From Microbacterium lushaniae (GTDB lineage: Bacteria; Actinomycetota; Actinomycetes; Actinomycetales; Microbacteriaceae), in assembly GCF_008727775.1 (NCBI RefSeq), contig NZ_CP044232.1:2046001-2110000 (forward strand): a stretch of 64,000 nt of DNA, given 5' to 3'. A model generated the notes under the pieces. It saw nothing but the letters and a program-made list of their open reading frames with translations, was not told where the DNA came from and made no database searches. A program made the translations under genes and the position numbers. Within the stretch, counting starts at the first letter, position 1; each line of letters opens with the position of its first letter. Positions 4,009 through 54,438 of the stretch are shown here, piece by piece.

Positions 4009-4074
4009 TCAGGAGAATCGCCCGAGTCAGGACCGGATCGCTCCGGATGCTCCTGACTCGGGCGATTCTCCTGA
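4009..4074. repeat. Perfect 24-bp-arm palindrome with nested hairpin
   Basis: Arms at 4009-4032 and 4051-4074 are perfectly complementary over 24 bp and begin TCAGGAGAATCGCCCGAG. The 18-nt loop holds a further 5-bp stem (CCGGA/TCCGG at 4033-4037 and 4042-4046). The element lies just after the 3' end of gatB and before dinB. It could end gatB transcription, but no U-tract follows. The same architecture (24-26 bp arms, 18-nt loop, shared TCGCTCCG in the loop) recurs at 53323-53392, so it is a dispersed repeat rather than a one-off terminator. Confidence 0.9.
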
Positions 4075-16611: not shown

Positions 16612-17134
16612 TGCGCAGAATTCAGGAGATCCGGGCGTTTCGCCGCCCCGGAGCCGACACCCACCGGCGTGTCTCCTGAGTTTTGCGCAACGGCAGGGCG
16701 GCGCCCAGGCGTCCACGGAGGCCCGAACGCCGGGCGGCAGGACGGCATGACGGACGCGGCGTCGACCCACCACTCCCCGTCACCGCCACCGCCACCCCGG
16801 GGTCGGCCCGGCCATCCGCCGGCGGCACTGCGCAAAACTCAGGAGATCCGGGCCCCTGGCCGCCCCGGAGCCGACACCCACCGGCGTGTCTCCTGAGTTT
16901 TGCGCAACGGCAGGGCGGCGCCCAGGCATCCACGGAGGCCCGAACGCCGGGCGGCAGGACCGCATGACGGACGCGACGTCCACCCGCCACTCCCCGTCAC
17001 CGCCACCGACAGCCCGGGGCAGGCCCGCGACAGCCCGGGCCATCTGCCGGCGGCACTGCGCAAAACTCAGGAGATCCGGGCCCCTGGCCGCCCCGAACGC
17101 CACCCCCACCGGCGTGTCTCCTGAGTTTTGCGCA
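16612..17134. repeat. Tandem array of three palindromic units in a 659-bp intergenic gap
   Basis: The gap between mnmA and the desulfurase gene holds three copies of a hairpin with 18-bp arms, TGCGCAAAACTCAGGAGA and its complement. Left and right arms lie at 16612-16629/16672-16689 (two mismatches), 16829-16846/16889-16906 and 17057-17074/17117-17134 (both perfect). Unit periods are 217 and 228 bp. Loops and the long spacers between hairpins are themselves similar, so whole units were duplicated. I see no credible coding frame here. The final copy ends about 75 bp from the desulfurase stop, so transcription read-through could meet all three. The TCAGGAGA core is shared with the palindromes at 4.0, 53.3 and 54.4 kb. 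Confidence 0.9.
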
Positions 17135-53322: not shown

Positions 53323-53392
53323 ATTCAGGAGAATCGCCGGATTCAGGACCCAATTCGCTCCGTTGCTCCTGATCTCGGCGATTCTCCTGAAT
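53323..53392. repeat. Dispersed palindrome, copy flanking the DUF559-type gene (3' side)
   Basis: Arms 53323-53348 and 53367-53392 match at 23 of 26 positions around an 18-nt loop. The arm begins ATTCAGGAGAATCGCCGG. Arm design and loop length equal those of 4009-4074, and the loops share TCGCTCCG. It lies between two convergent gene ends, 28 bp from the DUF559-type stop. Confidence 0.85.
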
Positions 53393-53419
53393 CCGGTGAG
53401 CAGCGGCGGGCGGTCGTGA

Positions 53420-54265
53420 TCAGCGAGCGGCGACGTGGAGGCGCTGCGCGATGGCGAGCACCACGGTCTCCTCGACGTACGCCCAGTCGAACAGCACCTG
53501 CTGGAAGTCGAACCGGAGCACCGTGTAGCCGCGGAGCCGGAGTCGAGCGTCGTGCGCGATGTCCCGCCGGCGGTCCGCGGCCCGGTGATGCGCGAAGCCG
53601 TCCAGCTGCACCACGAGCCGCTCCCCGATGAGCACGTCCACGGGGTGGCCATCCAGCCAGATCTGCTGGCGCACGGCGACCCCGAGGGCACGCATGCCCG
53701 CGATGAAACGGGACTCGAGTCCGGAATCCGAGAGGAAGGATGCCGCGTCGGCCAACTCCCGCGCCGCGGGGCTTCCCCACTGAACGGCCTGCAGAACGGC
53801 CGCGTCGGCGAGCCGCACCCGTAAAGCGGACTCCCACACGACCATCGCCTCCGTGCGTGGAAGACACCGCGCCGCATGAAACAGCACGTTGACGAGCGGG
53901 TCTTCGTTCGACGTCGCGGCCACCGGCGCGGGCCCCGCGCCCCAGTGCACGACGAGGCCGGCCGCGTCGAAACGAGCGGCGTTCGAGGCGACGGCGACGT
54001 GCACCCCGTCGTGGTTCGGAACCCACAGCCCGAGGAGGACGGCCTGCGTGACACACGTCGTCCGGCCGCTGACCGCCGCTGCCGCCGCCCGCCGGGGATC
54101 GGCGTCGGGTGCGACGACCCAAGAACGGCGAACGCGGCGCAGCAACCCGAGTTCCACGGCGCGAGCGACGTCAAGCTTGCTGAATCCGGCGGCGCGTGCG
54201 GCCGACGTGTGGGCCACGCCGTTGCGCTCGCGGACCCACTGCAGGAGTGCGAGGTGTCGAGACAT
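53420..54265 (-). CDS. AbiEi-like N-terminal wHTH plus DUF559 (Vsr/PD-(D/E)XK-like) protein
   Basis: A 281-residue protein. The N-terminal half (HLALLQWVRERNGVAHTSAARAAG...LLRRVRRSWVV) resembles the winged-helix domain of AbiEi-type antitoxins. The C-terminal 90 residues fit DUF559, a Vsr-like nuclease fold: ESRFIAGMRALG, DGHPVDVLIGERLVVQLDGFAHH and RRRDIAHDARLRLRGYTVLRF. The usual Glu before the second Asp is Gln here (QLDG). Such proteins are common in Microbacteriaceae, and the biological role is unknown. No AbiEii-type partner lies nearby. Palindromes lie on both sides. The ATG at 54265 follows the hexamer CACTCT by 6 nt. Confidence 0.8.
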   Translation of the reverse strand: MSRHLALLQWVRERNGVAHTSAARAAGFSKLDVARAVELGLLRRVRRSWVVAPDADPRRAAAAAVSGRTTCVTQAVLLGLWVPNHDGVHVAVASNAARFDAAGLVVHWGAGPAPVAATSNEDPLVNVLFHAARCLPRTEAMVVWESALRVRLADAAVLQAVQWGSPAARELADAASFLSDSGLESRFIAGMRALGVAVRQQIWLDGHPVDVLIGERLVVQLDGFAHHRAADRRRDIAHDARLRLRGYTVLRFDFQQVLFDWAYVEETVVLAIAQRLHVAAR

Positions 54266-54370
54266 GTCCCGAGAGTGCCGCCGGGCCGCCGCCGGTCGGC
54301 ACCTCGGCGCGGGATCCGTGGAGAGGACGCGCCGATCGCCACGTGGGGAGGAGGCTCCGCCGCATCCGAG

Positions 54371-54438
54371 TTCAGGAGATCTGCCCGGATCAGGACGCCT
54401 GGGGCCGATGCCGGCCTGAATTCGGCGAATCCCCTGAA
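54371..54438. repeat. Decayed dispersed palindrome flanking the DUF559-type gene (5' side)
   Basis: A left arm TTCAGGAGATCTGCCCGG (continuing to 54395) and a right arm at 54415-54438 pair imperfectly around a 19-nt loop. The copy is in the same orientation as the one at 53323-53392. It sits between the DUF559-type gene and the end of ffh. Confidence 0.75.

Follow-up and report, generated by a model that had tools for sequence, protein, structure and literature searches.

Among the long-familiar extragenic repeats of bacterial genomes are REPs and REPINs, whose partner enzymes are, to our knowledge, tyrosine transposases (the RAYTs and the related TIRYTs of PMC3733652). In REPIN-RAYT systems (PMC3116915, PMC8049555), the gene is flanked by its own repeats, which are extragenic and made of inverted motif pairs with a variable middle, and the RAYT gene is described as single-copy, vertically inherited and not observed on plasmids. 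A comparable arrangement is found around a gene of Microbacterium lushaniae (genome G000; 3.65 Mb, a single contig), within an analysed stretch of 64,000 nucleotides (C1:2046001-2110000, the window). The gene encodes an AbiEi-like DNA-binding module joined to an EDxHD nuclease domain and stands between two palindromes of one family. Genes of this DUF559 type are bracketed by palindromes of private specificity at most loci tested in the genus, most of the palindrome families counted are dispersed, and genes and palindromes diverge together from species to species. Gene and palindromes probably act together as a two-part system, resembling REPIN-RAYT in its workings but built on an unrelated enzyme.

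Bracketing of DUF559-type genes by their own palindromes

The window locus comprises the following features, numbered from the first letter of the window.

53420-54265, minus strand: gene of 281 aa (amino acids) with an AbiEi-like DNA-binding module and an EDxHD/Vsr-type nuclease domain (Pfam DUF559, fold match)
about residues 2-179 of the protein: AbiEi-like DNA-binding module
about residues 181-276 of the protein: EDxHD/Vsr-type nuclease domain
53323-53398, plus strand: downstream cognate palindrome, family A (TCAGGAGAATCG...), its core ending about 29 bp past the stop codon
54369-54444, plus strand: upstream cognate palindrome, family A, partly decayed, about 105 bp before the ATG
54344-54353, minus strand: CTCCTCCCCA motif between the start and the upstream palindrome

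The palindromes on both sides of the gene are thus present as an earlier note on the window had described them. The same note gave both copies one orientation, which a full alignment upholds (direct score 31 vs inverted 19) and which an automatic method working on truncated arms contradicts, calling the flanks inverted. Orientation is a weak feature because both copies are near-palindromes; over 78 loci it was direct in 43, inverted in 16 and ambiguous in 19, with arms partly truncated, and no argument is built on it.

A Pfam scan of the window protein up to E 1 returned DUF559 (E 1.7e-8) with weak matches to MTES_1575 and AbiEi_4 and nothing else, hence no HUH/Y1 (TnpA_REP) transposase, and NCBIfam and PADLOC gave weak DUF559/AbiEi matches or none. 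A predicted model of the protein aligns with AbiEi and EDxHD folds (the structure matches interpreted, from Foldseek and VIA, were the AbiEi, I-Bth0305I, 3hrl and Vsr rows), and by fold and profile the nearest solved structure for the nuclease domain is the homing enzyme I-Bth0305I. Acidic and His residues of this domain are conserved in the protein alignment and are presumably the catalytic ones; fold, profile and conserved residues together identify an EDxHD catalytic domain. The Vsr/PD-(D/E)XK-like nuclease with an N-terminal winged helix-turn-helix of the earlier note is here read as an AbiEi-like winged-helix module followed by an EDxHD domain.

M. lushaniae carries six such paralogues, and all six are flanked on both sides by like palindromes whose sequence differs from gene to gene (TTCAGGAGA; GTTCAAAACTCAGGAGA; GGTCGGAGGATCG; GGAGGGGATGTCG; GCACAACGGCGGAGATC; CCGAACTCCTCAA). 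For a general measure, a hairpin with 12-bp arms (at most 2 mismatches) was sought inside 450 bp on each side of a gene, and a locus passed when an arm on one side equalled an arm on the other within 1 mismatch; the six paralogues all pass, three with identical arms. Searching 39 genomes of the genus detected DUF559-type genes in 37 of them, with 150 matches in total (one gene sometimes giving several) and at most 10 per genome. Flanks were tested at 78 of the 150, namely the six of G000, the best locus from each of 29 other genomes, a set of 40 and three more. The first 35 loci served to choose among four settings, and the one kept was frozen before its use on the 40, which lie in 20-kb stretches picked from the match table before their flanks were seen.

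Among the 35 setting-up loci 29 were bracketed; of 1190 pairings of flanks across different loci, 5.0% matched. With the rule unchanged, 33 of the 40 further loci were bracketed (27 with identical arms), compared with 8 of 387 control genes in the same stretches, none with identical arms despite wider windows for the controls (Fisher p = 8e-35). The enrichment over control genes that the earlier note had asked to see is therefore there, with thresholds fixed on other loci. Genes too near a DUF559 gene, which were excluded from the control count, were bracketed in 3 of 77 cases, and flanks paired across different DUF559 genes of the 40-locus test matched in 22 of 400. Two of the three additional loci passed, bringing the genus to 64 of 78. 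Elsewhere in the order, over other genera and families, 16 of 28 loci passed, vs 30 of 756 mismatched pairs. Farther out these genes become scarce: a sample of 149 genomes from the phylum has them in 9, and four of the nine, G000 included, belong to the order. The sole bracketed locus among six outside the order (L190, genome G113) holds a distant relative flanked on either side by the long, near-perfect palindrome CGAACTTCGGGTGATTAGTGTCGC. A CTCCTCCCCAGG-type motif between start codon and upstream palindrome was found in 28 of 78 bracketed genes vs 4 of 442 control genes, this motif having been chosen after reading the six G000 genes, themselves among the 78.

Private palindrome families and their divergence

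Copies were counted genome-wide for five palindrome patterns. The GAACTCCTCAA palindrome occurs 32 times in G000, four of them at its cognate gene, and not at all in the 38 other genomes of the genus. In G031, a gene with both neighbours of the G000 GAACTCCTCAA gene has 60% protein identity and a variant palindrome, of which G031 holds 8 elements, three beside the gene and five away from it, and the 38 other genomes, G000 included, none. Palindromes equally abundant in genomes without the gene, the pattern that the earlier note had named as contrary to its proposal, were thus not seen in the families counted. Dispersed extragenic copies lie mainly in gene-bearing genomes, the exceptions being orphan copies and one family that is hardly dispersed. 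This last, CACAACGGCGGA, has two copies in G000 and one in G006, all at the cognate gene, one orphan in G016 and none in 36 other genomes, so not every family is widely dispersed.

The window itself holds 11 occurrences of TCAGGAGA vs 1.42 expected, a number reached by 0 of 100 shuffles. The exact pattern TCAGGAGA-N30-60-TCTCCTGA has 31 sites in G000 and none when reversed. By counts from the list of sites, seven measure 65-66 bp and contain a TCAGGA or similar repeat in their interior (family A, that of the window gene), and the other 24 measure 57-59 bp (family B). The pattern is otherwise found 13 times in G028, where three copies bracket a DUF559 gene (C45:101708-102538), and once each in G012, where the copy adjoins a DUF559-type gene, and G017; 35 other genomes have none. 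Away from the gene, the window contains these copies:

4009-4074, plus strand: dispersed extragenic family A copy, one of the 7 exact 65-66-bp copies in the genome (listing count)
16622-16679, 16839-16896 and 17067-17124, plus strand: three 58-bp family B palindromes, cognate to another paralogue

The dispersed copies had been taken for a single family, which holds for the first, a member of the window gene's 66-bp family, and fails for the other three, which belong to the 58-bp family bracketing a paralogue at about 2498.2-2499.0 kb of the genome, 0.4 Mb from the window gene. The three mark a local segmental duplication, following one another at intervals of about 217-228 bp with similar DNA between them.

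Across 84,980 named genomes, in a scan that may omit records very near G000, the G000 GAACTCCTCAA variant was met in four stretches, one of M. timonense, two of M. aurantiacum and one of a Solirubrobacterales genome. The best-matching relative of the GAACTCCTCAA protein in each of the two Microbacterium species is 54-56% identical and bracketed by variants of the palindrome; the M. aurantiacum locus satisfies the rule, and that of M. timonense, a gene with an internal stop, was judged by eye (d 4). Together these two species gave 11 protein matches, of which 10 were flank-tested and 7 passed. The Solirubrobacterales genome with the palindrome (L175) has a single weak protein match (E 1.9e-4, 98 residues), taken as chance.

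Both neighbouring genes are shared between species at 51 of 75 genus loci, falling into 14 groups, and none of 78 within-genome gene pairs compared exceeds 61% identity, which together indicate single-copy genes residing mostly at conserved loci. Protein identity averages 57% at the same locus (102 pairs) vs 36% between different loci (1173 pairs), and within the same locus it is 46% for the winged-helix part and 68% for the nuclease, so that the DNA-binding part diverges fastest. Over the 78 bracketed loci of 103, palindrome arms are identical for both of the 2 protein pairs with at least 70% identity; the share is 12.5% (48 pairs) at 60-70%, 8.7% (252) at 50-60%, 1.3% (373) at 40-50% and about 1% below 40%; allowing up to 1 arm mismatch, which has a higher background, gives 35, 32, 16, 13 and 10% from the 60-70% class downward.

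The neighbours of the window gene are a GCS2-type ligase gene on one side and ffh/SRP54 on the other, neither of these two flanking genes being a DUF1814 toxin gene or a methylase. The ligase-ffh junction is occupied in G000 and G013 and empty, without palindromes, in G015 and G019. Of 101 pairs of loci with shared neighbours, 23 have the gene in opposite orientations, which we read as at least three events, including one at the window locus (G000 vs G013), as if the flanking palindromes recombined. Reversed genes were seen for the window locus vs L026/L106, for L053, L059 and L071 vs seven loci, and for L089 vs L091. Searches of 72,556 plasmid records and 50,697 phage records with the window protein gave no match.

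Elements are 58-76 bp long in the families measured, and 28 of the 32 GAACTCCTCAA elements are exactly 76 bp, their symmetry reaching outward to CCGAACTCCTCAA with one extra C in most copies. The inverted motifs number one per arm in some families and two in others. Interiors of distant GAACTCCTCAA copies agree at a mean of 0.460 vs 0.335 when shuffled (highest 0.75), which suggests common descent, partly maybe shared constraint. Interior complementarity within vs between copies is 0.385/0.414 (28 copies), 0.692/0.715 (12) and 0.754/0.695 (6). A selected hairpin or hairpin intermediate is unsupported, since interiors are hardly more complementary within than between copies; inverted sequence motifs, not selection for base pairing, account for the symmetry. 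The 28 dispersed GAACTCCTCAA copies lie between convergent genes in 13 cases, co-directional genes in 9 and divergent genes in 3, and the remaining 3 are inside predicted genes, at most 112 bp from an end; this context rests on a rough gene caller. By eye, an inner CGACACGCCG / CGGCGTGTCG-like motif is common to the palindromes of many genes despite their differing outer arms (L019, L021, L046, L051, L058, L061, L073, L081, L087, L124, L126, L132, L134, L194).

The association can also be approached from the palindromes. A scan for repeated palindromes that ignored genes covered 400 kb each of G007, G013 and G024 (overlapping registers merged, two-site families set aside). It yielded a short family in G024, one with four sites on two stretches in G013, and three in G007, two of which are the palindromes of bracketed genes already known (L042, L077). 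For the third G007 family, CATAAACGC, there are at least 52 pattern matches with overlapping registers counted, and two of its sites about 1.2 kb apart enclose a 341-aa open reading frame without a Pfam match, whose layout is related by eye; the three DUF559 gene loci examined first lacked these families. A tblastn search with this frame over the retrieved stretches found a gene exactly between two orphan palindromes of G013 and another in G024, a genome earlier taken as gene-free, besides a partial fourth match at a stretch end (L057). Two gene-blind families without a known gene thus each led to a related bracketed gene, and identical-arm palindromes stand on both sides of all three genes, in windows 50 bp wider than those of the rule:

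L289:833-1858: second-subfamily gene of G007
L242:5587-6471: second-subfamily gene of G013
L268:14424-15221: second-subfamily gene of G024

This second subfamily is divergent, with GE(F/I)DG..KY recognised by eye, no Pfam match and private palindromes. It has 459 database relatives at E <= 1e-8, and among 120 listed these are hypothetical or AbiEi-type proteins, where named; one of its proteins had no match in the 72,556 plasmid records. G024 is no clean negative control because it holds a divergent bracketed gene and palindrome families.

A resident nuclease or something else

In the two-part system that we favour, the AbiEi-like winged-helix module would read the inverted motifs of the protein's private palindrome family and the EDxHD domain would nick or cut at or beside them. 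This would let the short elements be copied or moved to other extragenic sites, and the same activity may keep them uniform inside a genome. The gene would be a resident in single copy, inherited for the most part vertically, with the short elements as its non-autonomous population. We infer that the protein binds, cuts and copies or moves the element; the mobiliser role, which the earlier note had already raised, is unproven and is the leading reading from the organisation, the co-divergence and the conserved nuclease residues.

A number of observations weigh against it. At threshold, 7 of the 40 genus loci, 12 of the 28 order loci outside the genus and 5 of the 6 loci outside the order were not bracketed, so that the association weakens outside the genus. 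The lone TCAGGAGA copy of G017 is an orphan, not near a DUF559-type gene, as is a single CACAACGGCGGA copy in G016, and the CACAACGGCGGA family is found almost solely at its gene. Three weak palindrome families of G024 (TGTCCA-GACACCC, GCGTGAGGGGTCGGAAAC and GCACGACTCCTGC, dispersed over L251, L255, L266, L267, L269, L204 and L210) have no located gene. In the GAACTCCTCAA family, target-site duplications of at least 5 bp accompany 0 of 32 copies vs 36 of 640 mismatched flank pairs, and within-copy interior covariation is absent beyond the small excess in the six-copy family. The second-subfamily relative P0188 is labelled a plasmid, on a 3.15-Mb contig. Finally, no element movement was seen in these comparisons, which are between species, not strains.

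Among other explanations, a selfish gene of the homing type would cut lone palindromes or gene-less alleles, repair would copy in the palindrome-gene-palindrome cassette, and the elements would spread as a by-product. The kinship of the nuclease domain with I-Bth0305I, the ligase-ffh junction occupied in two genomes and empty in two others, and the changing gene orientation all speak for it. However, the lack of close within-genome pairs means that the gene is apparently not spreading into lone palindromes, 28 of the 32 GAACTCCTCAA copies are away from the gene, and the plasmid and phage collections gave no match, a point that P0188 qualifies; we regard homing as unlikely. The palindromes might instead be the sites of a regulator or nucleoid-organising protein, serving autoregulation and a dispersed regulon while the nuclease domain does something else. 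AbiEi proteins do bind inverted repeats at their own promoter, according to PMC7319586, and little or no interior covariation is what plain binding sites would show. Such a role sits poorly with a matching palindrome downstream of the gene as well as upstream, with the near half of dispersed GAACTCCTCAA copies that lie between convergent genes, away from promoters, with a near-fixed element length and the agreement of distant interiors (to which shared constraint may contribute), and with conserved nuclease residues, and it too seems doubtful to us.

Improbable, in our estimate, is a defence or self-recognition system with palindromes as marks or guards of the chromosome, a nuclease directed at invading DNA and a specificity that an arms race keeps changing fast. 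Weak AbiEi matches in the defence-system library and the fast divergence of the DNA-binding part fit it, but the window gene is flanked by a ligase and SRP54 rather than by a toxin or methylase, and defence would presumably not need dispersed extragenic copies. As for ordinary terminator hairpins, present near many genes and matched by chance through high GC, many copies do lie near gene ends; the control genes and the mismatched flanks rule this out, reversed patterns giving no matches at all, and we attach next to no weight to it.

Comparison with known systems

The limited collection of literature searched contained no report of palindromes bracketing such nuclease genes, and among papers naming DUF559, as far as their titles and abstract openings tell, none concerns palindromes flanking genes of this type. 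The arrangement looks like a repeat-spreading system of a previously undescribed kind. On balance we expect it to be a second, independently evolved class in which a resident nuclease keeps private REPIN-like populations: many paralogous AbiEi-EDxHD proteins per genome would each read their own motifs, rapid changes of the winged helix would reset specificity, and element populations would be rewritten to follow. The class would be common in Microbacterium, present elsewhere in the order, and inclusive of hypothetical or AbiEi-type proteins revealed by palindromes alone. If so, a second unrelated enzyme family would make the resident nuclease with private repeats a recurrent way of life, and a function would be in sight for genes of DUF559/AbiEi type that are at present annotated as unknown. 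The naturally co-diverging pairs of protein and element (64 of 78 genus loci tested) could also be used to read how a winged helix changes its DNA specificity.

EDxHD homing endonucleases such as I-Bth0305I, and Vsr, differ from the protein described here, which is the product of a free gene, carries an AbiEi-like module and is bracketed by dispersed palindromes. The AbiEi antitoxin of type IV AbiE systems differs in that the window gene has no adjoining DUF1814 toxin and carries a nuclease domain, and miniature inverted-repeat transposable elements (MITEs) and insertion sequences differ in that the GAACTCCTCAA family shows no target-site duplications. The CGTC-tagged palindromes, extragenic repeats that their authors could not tie to a RAYT (PMC3733652), are likewise palindromic and extragenic, a likeness of description with no sequence link shown.

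The closest parallel remains REPIN-RAYT, or the REPtron. Both have a nuclease gene flanked by its own repeat family (here 33 of 40 vs 8 of 387), an element made of an inverted conserved motif pair with a variable middle and extragenic dispersal, and a single-copy, vertical gene (here 51 of 75 loci share both neighbours across species). They differ in the enzyme, AbiEi with EDxHD/PD-(D/E)XK here rather than HUH/Y1, in the lack of GTAG in the three family A window copies inspected, in the lack of support for a selected hairpin, and in number, with up to 10 matches per genome here and six G000 genes each with its own element. Given the unrelated enzyme and the missing GTAG in the copies inspected, the system is not a member of the REPIN-RAYT family. 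It is best described, as the earlier note had proposed, as analogous but unrelated to a REPtron.
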